From: a virus
Direction: 5' to 3' (one strand)
DNA length: 64,000 bases
Virus record (IMG/VR): IMGVR_UViG_3300022918_000011
Span: 1-64,000 of that record
In this document: positions 9,274 to 24,248 of the stretch, one piece after another
Layout of the letters: each line of letters starts with the position of its first letter
Numbering within the stretch: the stretch's first letter is position 1
Notes under the pieces: generated by a model
What the model was told of the DNA's origin: nothing
The model's database searches: none
What the model saw: the letters and a program-made list of their open reading frames with translations, nothing else
Program-made: the position numbers and the translations under genes

Positions 9274-9707
9274 GTCGAAAGCCTCTCTTCCACCAAAAGA
9301 ACGGCCTGACCCGCATCGCGCTTCTGGACTTCTACGTCCAGCGCTGCGGCTGGTGGGGCATCAAGTCGGTCGACCTGTTCCACGAGGAGAAAACCTTCCG
9401 GGTCCGGATCCGTGAGGTAAAGGTGCCGGACGTCGTCATCGGCGACTTCAAGCACCTGACGGCTGCCCGCTGGGCATGGGACGCAGCTGTCAAGGACGTG
9501 CATGGCAAGAGCATTGCCGAGGCCCAGTCAGACAGCCGCTTCAGCGTTCAGCAGGAGGCCAGCGGCCAGCGAGACCCGGTCTGGGTCGCCCGCAATTGCG
9601 GCAAGTGGATCGGCTGGTCGGGTACCGAGCAAGGTGCCTGGCTGCTTTGCTATCAAGAAAAATTTCAGTTGGAGATCCCCGAACATGCCAAAACCACTCA
9701 ATCTTGA
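9270..9707 (+). CDS. Hypothetical protein (145 aa)
   Basis: The GTG start overlaps the upstream TGA. A longer frame begins at 9168 but that part overlaps the membrane gene, so it is rejected. The protein is soluble, with Trp-rich patches (RCGWWGIKS, NCGKWIGWSG). The last 23 bases overlap the next gene, whose ATG lies inside this one. Confidence 0.6.
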   Translation: MSRKPLFHQKNGLTRIALLDFYVQRCGWWGIKSVDLFHEEKTFRVRIREVKVPDVVIGDFKHLTAARWAWDAAVKDVHGKSIAEAQSDSRFSVQQEASGQRDPVWVARNCGKWIGWSGTEQGAWLLCYQEKFQLEIPEHAKTTQS

Positions 9708-10452
9708 AGACCGCTACTGGGTGATCAAGAAGGCTGACCTCAGCCTGTGCCACCAGATGGACTTCGATGAACATCTGGAACGAGAGCAGATCCCCACCCG
9801 GGAATCTGTCGTCGTGGAGTCACACAAGCCGTTCTTTCAGCGGGTTGTGGCCATGGTGCTGGAGCAGCAGCAAACCTACAGCGACGACGAGCTGATCGCC
9901 ATCGCCCACCGCTACCATGAGTACCTGATGCGGCCTGGGACGCCGAAGGAAAGCGGGTACACGATCAACGCGATGCGGTATGCGCTGACTGAGCCCGCAG
10001 CAGACGGTATCAGCTGGACCAGCAGCCCTCCGATTGAAGATCCGATTGTCGCCTGGAAACCGGGCGTAGCAGTGTTGAAGTCCGGCAAGGTGCTGGTCTC
10101 GCCAGACGACATCAGCTGGTCAGCTGGGGTCTCTAAATCGGCACCTGCCGCACACGAGCTCTACAAGGACGGCGACGCTGACATCCCTGACGGCATCACC
10201 GACCGTAACGGGCAGGTAGTGCTGGACTGCTGCAAGAAGTGTGGGAAGGGTGAAGCTGAATTGGCTGAGCCTTGCCCGCCGCCTCTAGAAGTCGACCCAG
10301 CAGCCCTGCGCACCGTTATTTCAGCGTTGATCGGGCCGCCTCACTTCATCCGTGAGTTGCAGGCATGCGTGACCTTGCCGGGTGGCCCGATCAACAAACT
10401 CCGGGACCAGTACAACGCTTGGTTGGCAAGCCAGAAATCACCGGCTGACTAG
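9685..10452 (+). CDS. Hypothetical protein with CxxC motif (255 aa)
   Basis: The start ATG (MPKPLNLEDRYWVIKK) lies in the end of the preceding gene, 10 bases after GGAG. Near residue 187 is DCCKKCGKGEAELAEPC. This short Cys/Glu motif recurs in many phage hypothetical proteins and may bind a metal. The N-terminal 120 residues are charged and helical. A perfect 14-base inverted repeat straddles the stop codon. Function is unknown. Confidence 0.6.
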   Translation: MPKPLNLEDRYWVIKKADLSLCHQMDFDEHLEREQIPTRESVVVESHKPFFQRVVAMVLEQQQTYSDDELIAIAHRYHEYLMRPGTPKESGYTINAMRYALTEPAADGISWTSSPPIEDPIVAWKPGVAVLKSGKVLVSPDDISWSAGVSKSAPAAHELYKDGDADIPDGITDRNGQVVLDCCKKCGKGEAELAEPCPPPLEVDPAALRTVISALIGPPHFIRELQACVTLPGGPINKLRDQYNAWLASQKSPAD

Positions 10453-10480
10453 CGAAGTCTGTCTGACGGTGATTTCTGGC
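10430..10480 (+). terminator. Long inverted repeat across the stop codon
   Basis: GCCAGAAATCACCG (10430-10443) and CGGTGATTTCTGGC (10467-10480) are perfect 14-base inverted arms with a 23-base loop that contains the TAG stop. There is no T-run. It could end or stabilise the upstream mRNA. The next 100 bases lead into the operator array. Confidence 0.45.
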
Positions 10481-10577
10481 CGCCGCCGGCAGGCGACCTT
10501 GAAACCGCCCGCAAGGTAGACATAGATCATTAGAGAGCAGGAGTTCTCGAAGGCTCTAAACCGGGCCGCTTGAAGGT

Positions 10578-10660
10578 GGGGTGTGTTCATCTAGATGAAC
10601 ACACCCCTGTTCATCTGGATGAACACGGTACCTCTGAAAAATGAACACACCCGTGTTCAT
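10578..10660 (+). promoter_or_regulatory. Array of palindromic operators or iterons (half-site GTGTTCATCT)
   Basis: A perfect 30-base palindrome occupies 10578-10607, centred on ATCTAGAT. A second, near-perfect palindrome follows at 10608-10625 (TGTTCATC, TG, GATGAACA). A third pair of half-sites lies in the opposite arrangement at 10641-10660 (ATGAACAC, four bases, GTGTTCAT). That makes six half-sites in 83 bases. They lie about 100 bases before a RepL-like winged-helix gene and are the obvious candidate binding sites for it, as operators or replication iterons. Confidence 0.7.
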
Positions 10661-10720
10661 CTGCCTACCACTATCCGACAGCCGGGAGTGTGTAGACAAG
10701 GCTGGAAGTAGTGCTATGCC

Positions 10721-10755
10721 CTATAATTTGTTAGATAGCCCACAAATTATAGGAG
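10721..10755 (+). promoter_or_regulatory. Inverted repeat covering the ribosome-binding site of the RepL-like gene
   Basis: CTATAATTTG (10721-10730) and CAAATTATAG (10743-10752) are perfect 10-base arms with a 12-base spacer. The right arm runs into the Shine-Dalgarno AGGAG (10751-10755), so the folded RNA would partly mask it. The left arm contains TATAAT (10722-10727), which may instead be a -10 box, though I see no good -35. Either reading makes this a control point. Confidence 0.55.
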
Positions 10756-10761
10756 ATGGAC

Positions 10762-11220
10762 ATGTCAGCCGCCCCTCAACACGAACGCCGCACCGGGCCA
10801 AGAGGCTCATGGGTCCAGACCGAAAGGTCTGGCCACGAAGCGTGGGCATCGCTCACCCAGACAAGCCCCAAGGCAGCCCAGCTGTTGCACGTACTGGTTG
10901 CCCACATGGACGAACAAGGCGCCCTTGTCACAAGCCAGAAGGTGTTGGCCCAGCTGTGTGACGTCCATGTGATGACCATCCGCCGCGCCATCGACACGCT
11001 GACCAGTATGAACTTCATACAGACAGTTCGGGTCGGCGGTGAGCGGGGAGGCGCCCTGGCCTACATCGTGAACAGCCGAGTGGCCTGGGCTGACAAAAGA
11101 GAAAAAATTCGTTACGCAAAGTTCAGCGCGATGGTGCTGGTGTCCTCCACTGAACAGGAGGAGATCGACGGCGAGCCTCTGCTGCAACTGCTGCGCAAAG
11201 GACAACCTGAAATTCATTGA
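10762..11220 (+). CDS. RepL-like winged-helix DNA-binding protein (152 aa)
   Basis: I choose ATG 10762 (MSAAPQHERR), 6 bases after AGGAG, over ATG 10756, which directly touches it. Residues 30-105 carry a winged helix-turn-helix: a helix (SPKAAQLLHVLVAHM), a turn (DEQGALVTSQKVLAQLCDV), a recognition helix (TIRRAIDTLTSMNFI) and a wing (VRVGGERGGALAYIVN). This pattern resembles RepL-type plasmid and phage replication initiators and related transcription regulators. The palindromic array just upstream fits self-regulation or origin binding. Whether it acts in replication or transcription cannot be told from the sequence. Confidence 0.65.
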   Translation: MSAAPQHERRTGPRGSWVQTERSGHEAWASLTQTSPKAAQLLHVLVAHMDEQGALVTSQKVLAQLCDVHVMTIRRAIDTLTSMNFIQTVRVGGERGGALAYIVNSRVAWADKREKIRYAKFSAMVLVSSTEQEEIDGEPLLQLLRKGQPEIH

Positions 11221-11231
11221 GAGGTATCAGC

Positions 11232-11600
11232 ATGAAAGCGCACTTCGTTCGGTTCCTGTTCCCCGGCACCTTCGTCAGCGAGGAGGACTCCCAAGCCTTA
11301 TCAGCTTGGGATGTTGAGACCGCCAAGCGACTGGCCACCGTATACCTGCGTCGCCCTTTCGCCTTCGAGTTCACCACCCGTGAGCGCGCTGACGATGAGC
11401 TGGACAGCAAGGTCGTGGCCACGTCGCCGCGTTACTACATCGGCGGGGAGGTCAGGACAGCGGCGGAGATCGAAGCTGGTACCGACCCGCGCGAGGACAT
11501 CCTGCGCAGCAACGTTAAGAACAACGGGTACAAACGGATCATCTATACCTGCGGGCAACACTTTGCGCTGGAAGATGGCGCAGTGGTGTTGCCGGTATGA
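11232..11600 (+). CDS. Hypothetical protein (122 aa)
   Basis: ATG 11232 (MKAHFVRFLFPG) follows GAGAGG with 6-base spacing. A TTG at 11217 lies inside the previous gene and is rejected. The protein is soluble and alpha/beta. The C-terminus (YKRIIYTCGQHFALED) is hydrophobic with one Cys. The stop is in an ATGA overlap with the next gene. No family is recognised. Confidence 0.6.
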   Translation: MKAHFVRFLFPGTFVSEEDSQALSAWDVETAKRLATVYLRRPFAFEFTTRERADDELDSKVVATSPRYYIGGEVRTAAEIEAGTDPREDILRSNVKNNGYKRIIYTCGQHFALEDGAVVLPV

Positions 11601-11872
11601 ACAAACCACCCGTAAAACTCCAGATGGCATACGACACGATCGCCAAGATGGAAGGGCAGATCCAGCGCTACGAAGCGCTGCTCAACGAAGTCCTGAACGA
11701 GGTGCCCCATGGCTGGGGCGAGTCGTTCAGCCGCAGCGACCTTGCGAACGACATCCGCCTGGCCATCGGCAAGCAGAGCAACTACAGCGGGCAGGCTCAC
11801 TGCCCGCACTGCGGCATCTGCCACACCAGCGACGAGACATGCGTCGAAGCGCAAGCGCGGGTGGCAGCGTGA
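11597..11872 (+). CDS. Hypothetical Cys-rich protein (91 aa)
   Basis: It is coupled to the preceding gene by ATGA and to the next by GTGA. Residues 1-55 are helical (Glu/Lys/Leu-rich). Residues 69-82 carry CPHCGICHTSDETC, a probable zinc-binding knuckle. Function is unknown. Confidence 0.6.
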   Translation: MNKPPVKLQMAYDTIAKMEGQIQRYEALLNEVLNEVPHGWGESFSRSDLANDIRLAIGKQSNYSGQAHCPHCGICHTSDETCVEAQARVAA

Positions 11873-12066
11873 CCATCACCCCCGGCAAGGGCCTCAAGGG
11901 TCTGAACTGCAACGTCACCGCCTGTCAGGCGCCGGACAGTGCTCACCACTACAACACGACGATGCACGCCTGGTACTGCCGCCGGTGTGCTGAAGACATT
12001 CAATACTGGGCCAAGAAAAGCGGCTTCGAGCTGTTTGAAGGTCTGGAAGGAGTAAGACGTGACTGA
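11869..12066 (+). CDS. Small zinc-finger-like protein (65 aa)
   Basis: The GTG start overlaps TGA. Four cysteines are spaced as two pairs (NCNVTAC, then CRRC about 25 residues later) with His between them. This is a plausible zinc ribbon. A longer frame to 11311 is a shadow of the upstream genes. Its last 8 bases overlap the next gene. Confidence 0.55.
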   Translation: MTITPGKGLKGLNCNVTACQAPDSAHHYNTTMHAWYCRRCAEDIQYWAKKSGFELFEGLEGVRRD

Positions 12067-12673
12067 GAAAACTGAAGTTGGCGCGATGGTGCTGGTGCCC
12101 CTAGAGGCCAACCGGCAGATGATCGACGCTGCCCTGGCTATCTACGAAAAAGACGGCAGCTACGCTGAGATGTTTGAAGCCATGTGCAAAACCGCACCCT
12201 CTGAGCAGACACCAGAGGAGGGCGGGGAGTTCGATGACCAATCGGAGTCCGACAATTTGTTCTGCACCAAGCAACTGCTGGAGAGGGCAGCCAAGTGCAT
12301 GGGCGTCGAGCCTCACACCATCAGCTTCTTTGACGTGGTGGGGCATCTGGAAGCTCTCCAGATTCAGCTCAAGGCCAGCGAGGCGCAGCAAGGTGGACCA
12401 GTAGCCTGGGCCAACGAGAACGACCTCAAGCCTTCCCACGTTTTCATGGTGCAGGCAGGCTACCCAGCGTGCAAGTACCCGGACGGTGGCAAGGCGGTCG
12501 CCCTTTACCGTGGGCCTGTCATAACCGACACCTCAGACATCCACCGACTAGTGGGAAACGCCCTCGACCTGCACCTGGGTGACGACTCGCCTGACCCTAT
12601 CTCGAAGACAGCGTTCGCAGCGGTGGTAGAGCTGGTGGGCAGGGTCTTGAATTCGAAGAAGGAACCAAAATGA
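12059..12673 (+). CDS. Hypothetical protein (204 aa)
   Basis: GTG start with GGAG 6 bases upstream. The N-terminal part (residues 15-45) is helical and resembles a short segment common in phage accessory proteins. Residues 50-65 are acidic. The C-terminal half has two helices. No enzyme motif is visible. The stop is in an ATGA overlap with the membrane gene that follows. Confidence 0.6.
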   Translation: MTEKTEVGAMVLVPLEANRQMIDAALAIYEKDGSYAEMFEAMCKTAPSEQTPEEGGEFDDQSESDNLFCTKQLLERAAKCMGVEPHTISFFDVVGHLEALQIQLKASEAQQGGPVAWANENDLKPSHVFMVQAGYPACKYPDGGKAVALYRGPVITDTSDIHRLVGNALDLHLGDDSPDPISKTAFAAVVELVGRVLNSKKEPK

Positions 12674-12912
12674 CCATCCAATCCGTCATCGCCGGGTACC
12701 TGCTCGGCTGCCTGCTGTTCGCCCTCGTCACCTGCTACGAGATCCACTTGGCGGGTGCCGGAAAGCACCGCCGGGTGAGCATCGACAAGCACCGCAGCCT
12801 GATGAAGGACTTCAAAGACACCCCGGTGTCGGCCGCTCTCGCCTTTATTTTCGTGTGCCTGTCGTGGCCTTGGCTCTTGGTGCGCAGACTGCTGGGTGGG
12901 TCGAAGAAATGA
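12670..12912 (+). CDS. Small membrane protein (80 aa)
   Basis: Two hydrophobic helices lie at about residues 5-26 and 52-70. A basic loop between them (GKHRRVSIDKHRSLMKDFK) should face the cytoplasm. The end is basic (RRLLGGSKK). It is linked by ATGA overlaps on both sides, to an unknown gene and to a DUF7220-like gene, so three proteins are made as one unit. Function is unknown. Confidence 0.6.
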   Translation: MTIQSVIAGYLLGCLLFALVTCYEIHLAGAGKHRRVSIDKHRSLMKDFKDTPVSAALAFIFVCLSWPWLLVRRLLGGSKK

Positions 12913-13127
12913 CCCAATCCCGCCGCCAGTCCCTCCTCGAAACCGTCACCAACACCTTCGTCGGTACACTGGGCAGCCTGCTGATCACCTACGTGACCGT
13001 GAGCAACGTCGCCGACCCGTTGGTGGCGTCAGTTATCACGGTGGCAGGCTGCACAGTCTGGAGCCTGGTGCGTGGGTACTTTATCCGCCGGCGATTCAAC
13101 AGCATTCTTGCGGAGCAAAAATTATGA
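12909..13127 (+). CDS. DUF7220-like small membrane protein (72 aa)
   Basis: Start in an ATGA overlap. The N-terminus MTQSRRQSLLETVTNTFVG followed by two hydrophobic segments (about 17-38 and 39-58) and a basic tail matches the pattern of a phage membrane family (DUF7220: Met-Ser/Thr-Gln-Ser-Arg, then Ser-Leu-hydrophobic-Glu). The family has no known function. The assignment is by memory of the pattern. Confidence 0.6.
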   Translation: MTQSRRQSLLETVTNTFVGTLGSLLITYVTVSNVADPLVASVITVAGCTVWSLVRGYFIRRRFNSILAEQKL

Positions 13128-19310: not shown

Positions 19311-19341
19311 ACGATAACCTTTCTCATATGGGAATTTGAAG

Positions 19342-20220
19342 ATGCGAAAAATTTTACTTGCGGTTTCCCTGGCGATGTTCGCCTCTGCAGCGTTCGCCGT
19401 GCCGGACTTGCGCTTCTGTACAGGAGGCGAGGGTGGGTTCTACGAAGGGTTGGGTACCAGCATCGGTAACGCCATCGTCAAGCAAGACGGCGGCGTCCTG
19501 AAGGTCCTGAACACCGGCGGCAGCGTTGAGAACGCCGAGCGCCTGAAGGACGGCACCTGTGACATCGCGGTCATCCAGAACGACGCGGTCATCAGCCTGC
19601 CCATGCCTGCGGACCTGAAGGTCAGCGACGCTCATGTCGAGGTCGTCTACTGGCTGCACGGCAAGGCCGGGGTCGATGACTTCGGCAAGATGGAAAAGGA
19701 CAGCGTCGCTGCCAAGTATGCTTTCGCAGCGGTGTCCGGCTCCGGCGCACTGGTGACGGTGCGTAACTGGATCAAGACCGACAAGGACTATGAAGGTGCC
19801 CGCATCGTCGAGTTCGATGATTGGTACAGCGCTGCCGAAGCGGTTGCCCAAGGCTATGTCAGTAAAGCAGGTGTGCGGATTGAAATCGCCGGCATGCTTT
19901 ACATCGGCCGAGCCGGAAAAATCCCGTCTGACATCACCGCTGACTTCGGTAAGCAGATCCTGATAGGCGAAGTGAATGATGACTCATTCGAGAACGCCAA
20001 AGACGCCAACAACAACCCGCTGTACACCCACTGCGAGGTGGACAAAGAAAGCCGCAGCGGCCTGGACACATCGACCACCGGCAAGCCGGACACCTACTGC
20101 TTGCGAGCCCAGATCGTATTCAACAATGAATACCTGAAGGGCCTCGCACCTGGTGATGTGAAGAAAGTTCGCCAGTCGGTGGACAAAGGCATCAACAGCA
20201 TCGTGAAAGTCGTTCGCTAA
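19342..20220 (+). CDS. Exported TAXI-type (TRAP) solute-binding protein (292 aa)
   Basis: The N-terminus MRKILLAVSLAMFASAAFA is a clear signal peptide with cleavage expected after Ala19. The mature part begins with FCTGGEGGFYEGLGTSIGNA, then VLNTGGSVENAERLKDGTCD and IAVIQNDA. TAXI-family periplasmic receptors show the same G-G-x-G-G-x-Y, STGGSVENL and D-h-A-h-x-Q-N-D phrases in this order. These proteins normally feed a TRAP transporter. No transporter gene is nearby. ATG 19342 is chosen over TTG 19336, with GGGA 11 bases upstream. Codon use matches its neighbours, so it is not a recent arrival. A periplasmic ligand- or host-binding role is inferred. Confidence 0.7.
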   Translation: MRKILLAVSLAMFASAAFAVPDLRFCTGGEGGFYEGLGTSIGNAIVKQDGGVLKVLNTGGSVENAERLKDGTCDIAVIQNDAVISLPMPADLKVSDAHVEVVYWLHGKAGVDDFGKMEKDSVAAKYAFAAVSGSGALVTVRNWIKTDKDYEGARIVEFDDWYSAAEAVAQGYVSKAGVRIEIAGMLYIGRAGKIPSDITADFGKQILIGEVNDDSFENAKDANNNPLYTHCEVDKESRSGLDTSTTGKPDTYCLRAQIVFNNEYLKGLAPGDVKKVRQSVDKGINSIVKVVR

Positions 20221-23592: not shown

Positions 23593-23784
23593 ATGGCTGA
23601 GAAAATCACCATCGTCATCGAGACCGGCAACGCTGCGTTCGATGACAGTCCGGCTACTGAAGTAGGCCGGATCCTCAAGGACTTGGCAGACAAGTTCCAA
23701 TACAGCGGTGTGGTGATAGGCACGCTGCGTGATATCAACGGTAACCGGGTTGGTACCGTGAACATTGAGCAGGTGCCCGAATGA
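23593..23784 (+). CDS. Small hypothetical protein (63 aa)
   Basis: It begins MAEKITIVIETGNAAFDD and continues with a helix (VGRILKDLADKF) and two strands (GVVIGTLRDINGNRVGTV). This compact alpha/beta plan recurs in phage proteins that end with D-x-N-G-N-x-V-G. Two bases separate it from the previous stop, and the next gene overlaps by ATGA. Confidence 0.6.
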   Translation: MAEKITIVIETGNAAFDDSPATEVGRILKDLADKFQYSGVVIGTLRDINGNRVGTVNIEQVPE

Positions 23785-24248
23785 AACTCGTCCAACGCAT
23801 CACCTTTGAAACAACCTTCGAAGTCCCGGACAACGTGGACTACAAGCAGCTGGTCAAGAACCGCATGGCTGCGCTCGATGACTTCGAGACTGAGCTGGGA
23901 GACAACAAGGCCCTGCGCCCTGCTGGCTCCGTCGGCGCCGACGTCACCATGAGCGTGAACCTCAAGACGGACGTCGAACTGCTGACCATGCCGGCGCTGA
24001 GCACGGCGCACATCAGCTACGAGGCTGACAGCTGGTTGGGCGAGTGGGGCAGCTCATGCCACGCTCTGGTAATGGCCGACGGAGACGCCGGTTACTTCGT
24101 CCGGGTTCTCACAGACCACGCTGATATAGAGTTGGTACCGCAGTCCATCCGCGAGGTCGCTGCCTGGGCCAACAACTGCGGCCACCACTGGTTCCGGCTG
24201 GACCGAGACGCCCCGCGCGTTGACGGCCTAACCGCTTACGACTGGTGA
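23781..24248 (+). CDS. DUF5983-like protein (155 aa)
   Basis: The C-terminal half, starting at ALSTAHISYEADSWL (about residue 75) and running through YFVRVL to WFRLDRDAPRVDGLTAYDW, matches the layout of DUF5983: a conserved L-S-T-A-H-h-T/S start, a hydrophobic strand, and a W-h-x-L-D-R-D-x-P ending. The N-terminal part is a separate small domain. Function of DUF5983 is not known. Confidence 0.65.
   Translation: MKLVQRITFETTFEVPDNVDYKQLVKNRMAALDDFETELGDNKALRPAGSVGADVTMSVNLKTDVELLTMPALSTAHISYEADSWLGEWGSSCHALVMADGDAGYFVRVLTDHADIELVPQSIREVAAWANNCGHHWFRLDRDAPRVDGLTAYDW

Follow-up and report, generated by a model that had tools for sequence, protein, structure and literature searches.

A plasmid-type replication module, probably used as an origin, in a lytic-type Pseudomonas phage

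The locus and its phage

The stretch of DNA analysed here (the window, 64,000 nucleotides) comprises bases 1-64000 of an 82,688-base (82.7 kb) virus contig, which carries early and replication genes on the plus strand and structural genes on the minus strand. The contig encodes its own polymerase, primase, helicases and ligase, as well as phage structural and packaging genes, including a terminase and a major head protein. The polymerase displays 59-63% identity to its counterparts in Pseudomonas phages UAntarctica, Lana and PMBT3, and the major head protein 64-65% identity to those of Pseudomonas phages of the same lineage; judged by these proteins, the contig belongs to the Lana/PMBT3/UAntarctica phage lineage. 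The locus under study contains the following elements:

10423-10501, plus strand: conserved hairpin, with arms at 10430-10449 and 10461-10480
10447-10463: loop core of the hairpin, GACTAGCGAAGTCTGTC, followed by GGCCGCCGCCGGCAGGCGAC
10524-10534, plus strand: box A, AGATCATTAGA
10578-10607, no strand assigned: perfect 30-bp palindrome GGGGTGTGTTCATCTAGATGAACACACCCC with two half-sites, a candidate Rep-binding site
10608-10626, no strand assigned: second, near-perfect palindrome TGTTCATCTGGATGAACAC with two half-sites
10641-10662, no strand assigned: third half-site pair ATGAACACACCCGTGTTCATCT, with the paired stretch at 10641-10660
10720-10753, plus strand: 12-bp inverted repeat, with arms at 10720-10731 and 10742-10753 and a 10-nt loop
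10722-10727: TATAAT, within the inverted repeat
10728-10745: operator motif TTGTTAGATAGCCCACAA, within the inverted repeat
10751-10755, plus strand: ribosome-binding site AGGAG, predicted from the sequence
10762-11220, plus strand: rep, 152 aa from ATG 10762, an HTH_36 winged-helix initiator gene without the C-terminal tail

ORF callers place the start of rep at ATG 10756; we consider ATG 10762 (MSAAPQ...) likelier, because AGGAG directly abuts ATG 10756. HTH_36 is the sole Pfam model above its cut-off (E 1.9e-6; 28 bits, with a cut-off of 25). Neither RepL (PF05732, from Firmicutes plasmids) nor Rep_3 (PF01051) was among the Pfam matches with E up to 1, and the name RepL is used here after the annotation of relatives. 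A tblastn search with the protein retrieved 226 plasmid records, the best, Pseudomonas pAd12 and pPL2, at 65% identity, and the homology to HTH_36 initiators spans most of the protein length. In a 2,671-bp Citrobacter plasmid, the rep homologue is the only annotated gene and therefore very likely the initiator. Thus, the HTH_36 match and the RepL-annotated relatives bear out a preliminary description of this DNA, which had proposed a RepL-like winged-helix gene, and the initiators of Pseudomonas plasmids agree with the link to replication in a pseudomonad that it had suggested. In viral contigs, a single-sequence query found no relative, whereas an alignment query yielded 28 loci.

A layout common to plasmids and the phage

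Six GTTCA-type half-sites, starting at 10583, 10593, 10608, 10618, 10641 and 10653, precede rep; both their number and the 30-base perfect palindrome at 10578-10607 had been noted before and were confirmed. GTTCATC occurs 5 times within 85 bp, compared to 2 in the densest 85 bp across 60 Markov shuffles of the contig. Box A and the hairpin, by contrast, had been overlooked. Exact matches to GATCATNAGA turned up in 20 of 32 regions upstream of rep, compared to 14 of 600 random windows, a background that may itself include real sites, and AGATCATNAGA occurs twice in the 82.7-kb contig (0.15 expected).

The elements follow an order common to plasmids and the phage, namely, the hairpin, an AGATCATnAGA box, G-flanked inverted half-sites, a promoter operator and rep. 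All three of the parts for which we scanned are present in the window (box A at 10524-10534, half-sites at 10578-10662 and operator at 10728-10745), and so are box A and the upstream hairpin taken as a pair, which most Pseudomonas members possess (a feature recognized in this study, used as a criterion of our own). We regard the identification of a plasmid replication module as firm and close to certain. The HTH_36 initiator family has been described in Paracoccus plasmids, the published REP modules of which carry upstream iteron-like direct repeats, overlapped in pMOS2 by inverted repeats (PMC3832669); iteron-like repeats, as in HTH_36 (RepL-annotated) REP modules, also lie upstream of rep in the window. 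Homologous initiators with inverted and direct repeats just upstream are found in pAES7, pMARC3, pMOS2, pSx-Qyy and Acidiphilium cryptum plasmids (PMC3832669), and with upstream repeats in the RepL- or HTH-annotated Pseudomonas plasmids pAd12, pPL2, Rsu2 and pJUPA4018. By description, pKL1 of Escherichia coli and pAES1 also combine an HTH_36 initiator with an upstream origin, inverted repeats and several Rep sites, but belong to a separate subclass, pKL1 being placed in the sister subclass to the Paracoccus-type initiators (PMC3832669). Whereas box A is shared between the window and many HTH_36 plasmids, and the hairpin and the promoter operator with most Pseudomonas plasmids, the window differs from HTH_36 plasmids in its lytic-type phage carrier, the missing tail, a short hairpin loop and partition genes that were not found.

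The replicon also occurs in contigs of approximately 80-85 kb (L026, L028 and L032) that encode rep, ParA and a terminase and are probable Pseudomonas phage-plasmids. In L026, the first palindrome likewise lies 53 nt after box A, forming a unit of the same kind. The terminase match is interrupted by stop codons in L026 and L028.

Consistent with the earlier assignment of the array to rep, this layout is common to plasmid relatives, and half-site and predicted recognition helix change together. All 5 proteins with a VMTIRR or IMTIRR helix (those of the window, L024, L025, pAd12 and L026; group pattern C-x-V-S/H-V/I-M-T-I-R-R) are associated with GTTCA half-sites, whereas A-T-T/I-K-R proteins are associated with GCTCA or GGTCA and RRTVQR proteins, in 2 of 3 cases, with CGTCA. 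Because the two change together between clades, the rep protein probably binds the array, although the match is a correlation within a phylogeny, which fits binding by this protein but does not prove it.

Of the inverted repeat previously described over AGGAG, the presence stands, but it is 12 rather than 10 bp long and covers 3 of the 5 bases of the ribosome-binding site. The repeat contains TTGnnnGATAnCnnnCAA; most of the related Pseudomonas plasmids have this operator in the rep promoter region, with TTGnnnGATATCnnnCAA in one to four copies, and TTGNNNGATANCNNNCAA is present just once in the entire contig (0.05 expected). Given this shared motif and its rarity, our first reading of the repeat is a promoter operator. 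The RNA may also fold across the ribosome site (z = -3.1 for the RNA fold around 10720-10753), but the region before rep in the nearest relative, L024, is by its sequence without such a hairpin at the ribosome site. A two-layer switch with such a hairpin, as proposed earlier, is therefore unsupported, and the promoter operator was preferred to the hairpin as the main control. Promoter and terminator scans returned nothing.

The upstream hairpin

The loop core of the hairpin lies approximately 70-85 nt before box A, and the DNA fold has a z of -5.4. A covariance model scores the window hairpin at 68.8 bits (E 1e-13), the window being among the 13 sequences from which the model was built. The stem sequence varies between relatives while pairing is kept: in these 13 sequences, 93.7% of cells are paired, compared to 24-48% when the partner is slid, and both members have changed in 13 pairs (44 cells of this sort versus 13 in shuffles). 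Similarly, 93.0% of cells are paired in 25 distinct sequences found with the model, with 81 both-side changes versus 24, although an alignment collected in this way leans towards structure. G.U cells far outnumber A.C cells (62 versus 4), and it is therefore the rep-sense strand that folds. The loop holds a GCGAAGC-like mini-hairpin; d(GCGAAGC) forms an unusually stable DNA hairpin. The loop core also contains the stop codon (10450-10452) of the upstream gene 9502-10452, so that the module is tightly joined to this gene.

The model matches upstream of rep in all examined Pseudomonas-type loci with enough sequence, except L012, L029, L030 and L031. In six whole Pseudomonas genomes, the hairpin lies at rep and a second, weaker copy is present in 2, in one of them on the same contig in the opposite orientation. 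Across 199 Pseudomonas genomes, hairpin scores reached 48 bits in 6, precisely those that encode a near-full-length rep. A seventh, weak match (31.7 bits) is located in genome G182 (C12:466297-466385), where no rep was detected. L008 and G050 each have one copy per strand, and L026 has two in tandem.

An Rfam search with the hairpin found nothing above threshold; two matches to microRNA families in a permissive scan fell far below the cut-offs and were rejected. A search with the exact short-form pattern gave no hit, and the loop pattern had four hits in viral contigs outside known rep loci (L111 and L113-L115), in three of which the model found nothing and in the fourth, L115, a match of 18 bits (E 0.25). 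As far as we could find, the hairpin is new and has no earlier description.

Single-strand initiation signals are conserved folds of a single strand near an origin, as the hairpin appears to be with respect to the putative origin here, and our preferred reading is that of a priming signal of this kind, with an RNA element as the alternative. The single-strand initiation signals ssiA and ssiB of RSF1010 are likewise structured elements near a plasmid origin, but differ from the hairpin in sequence and structure, and priming by the hairpin is putative. A covarying hairpin absent from Rfam is thus a candidate for how RepL-type Pseudomonas plasmids begin strand synthesis and a possible typing marker for these plasmids; clinical plasmids also belong to this replicon family, one of which takes its name from a VIM carbapenemase.

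Possible roles of the module in the phage

A plasmid-type replicon would be no surprise in a temperate phage that persists as a plasmid. A remodelled replicon in a phage with a virulent described relative raises the question whether plasmid origins are borrowed for replication or to fight plasmids. With a probability of roughly 60%, a figure that takes in the origin role too, we favour a complete plasmid replication module in a lytic-type Pseudomonas phage, used as an origin during infection. The module (hairpin 10423-10501, box A, array, operator and rep) would have been acquired from the pool of plasmids and phage-plasmids. The winged-helix protein would bind the array, probably as dimers, and open or mark the origin, and would repress its own promoter via the operator, which overlaps both the -10 box and the ribosome site, while the hairpin, folded on the rep-sense strand, would be the priming start for one strand. 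In the phage, the module would most likely provide an early or auxiliary origin, the phage helicase, primase and polymerase standing in for the role of the lost C-terminal tail in plasmids. We rank this role above interference with plasmids, and the latter above plasmid-like lysogeny.

The tail is also a point against the origin role, since nearly all plasmid relatives keep it and rep, in which it is missing, may not start replication. A tail of the QLPxGxG..PPxQ..PDLP type, our own criterion, is present in most family members and missing in the rep proteins of the window and L024. Among 28 proteins, the pattern was likewise missing from L029 and L031, whose long tails are of other kinds, and from L021, in which the motif lies further inside. 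The protein closest to that of the window is that of L024 (73-78% identity), and the two form a supported clade (100/98). The dN/dS between them is approximately 0.15, with dS near saturation, suggesting that rep is under purifying selection. L024 lies in a 75-kb, N4-like phage contig (IMGVR_UViG_3300048848_000007), the RIIA-like protein of which shares 38-56% identity with its counterparts in the N4-like Pseudomonas phages Arace01, Zuri and Littlefix. Around this locus, its gene order is that of Arace01 (dCTP deaminase, a variable stretch, ThyX and RIIA); the tail-less rep, with a reduced array, sits between dCTP deaminase and ThyX. No further tail-less relatives were found in viral contigs, so that there are two phage cases, one per lineage.

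These two cases are what chiefly speaks for interference, in which the Rep sites and the shortened Rep would compete with or block resident plasmids or phage-plasmids sharing GTTCA-type sites, which would supposedly release replication factors of the host or do away with defences encoded on plasmids. Array and recognition helix are kept while the tail is lost in two phages that belong to different lineages but whose proteins form one supported clade; rep appears to be held by purifying selection; and the same half-site is present in possible targets, plasmids pAd12 and pPL2 and phage-plasmid L026. There is also a precedent in another plasmid family, that of pIGRK, where a shortened Rep opposes the full-length one, though with its N-terminus cut (PMC6854812). 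However, a decoy needs neither the hairpin nor box A, both of which are kept, and the cases are only two; we consider this role unlikely, if worth weighing. Slightly less probable again is the broader proposal that at least two lytic-type Pseudomonas phage lineages share a tail-less initiator clade, array and hairpin retained, and use it against resident plasmids or phage-plasmids through competition (incompatibility), rather than or besides their own replication, the hairpin being a single-strand initiation signal of a class not described before.

Lysogenic maintenance as a plasmid between infections, as in KS14, has precedents: KS14 is kept as a plasmid prophage (PMC3091744), ORF44 of its relative FLC5 (PMC7815583) is a distant homologue of rep (37% identity), and the phage-plasmid contigs combine rep with ParA. 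However, box A and a comparable array are absent upstream of ORF44. Whereas KS14 encodes ParA, searches for ParA, ParB and a tyrosine integrase found none in the contig, which may be short by a few kb; ParA was not found in the L024 contig either. Furthermore, PMBT3, another member of the lineage, has been described as virulent and as lacking integrase, repressor and antirepressor genes (PMC8421299), and the rep tail is missing. We thus judge such maintenance improbable, and the switch between lytic growth and a quiet state once envisaged for this locus gains no support.

That proposal of a switch implies a plain autoregulated transcription factor, with the array as operator only and neighbouring early genes under its control. 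Palindromic operators do adjoin the gene of a small winged-helix protein, and searches of solved structures and by fold (model mean pLDDT 70) returned only generic winged-helix proteins. Yet the family members are plasmid initiators, and the entire plasmid origin layout is kept, including the hairpin and box A, which makes this reading marginally less credible than plasmid-like lysogeny.

Searches for rep in 25 records of the lineage, some of them fragments, found it in none (a positive control worked on a subset), nothing comparable to the array was seen in the syntenic region of three relatives, and a nucleotide search with 9500-12100 gave no match in phages. Lana, PMBT3 and UAntarctica thus share the lineage but not the module, which is therefore dispensable there. 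A chimeric assembly joining a plasmid fragment to a phage, to which the 0/25 might point, is very improbable, since genes on either side of the module match one phage lineage, the protein and array are unlike those of every plasmid seen, and a tail-less sister lies in another phage contig.

Elsewhere in the window, a gene at 19336-20220 encodes an NMT1-like periplasmic-binding protein, an odd phage cargo, the start of which resembles a signal peptide and which is 67% identical to its counterpart in the relative G028. Small early genes at 12855-13127 and 23781-24248 match DUF7220 and DUF5983.
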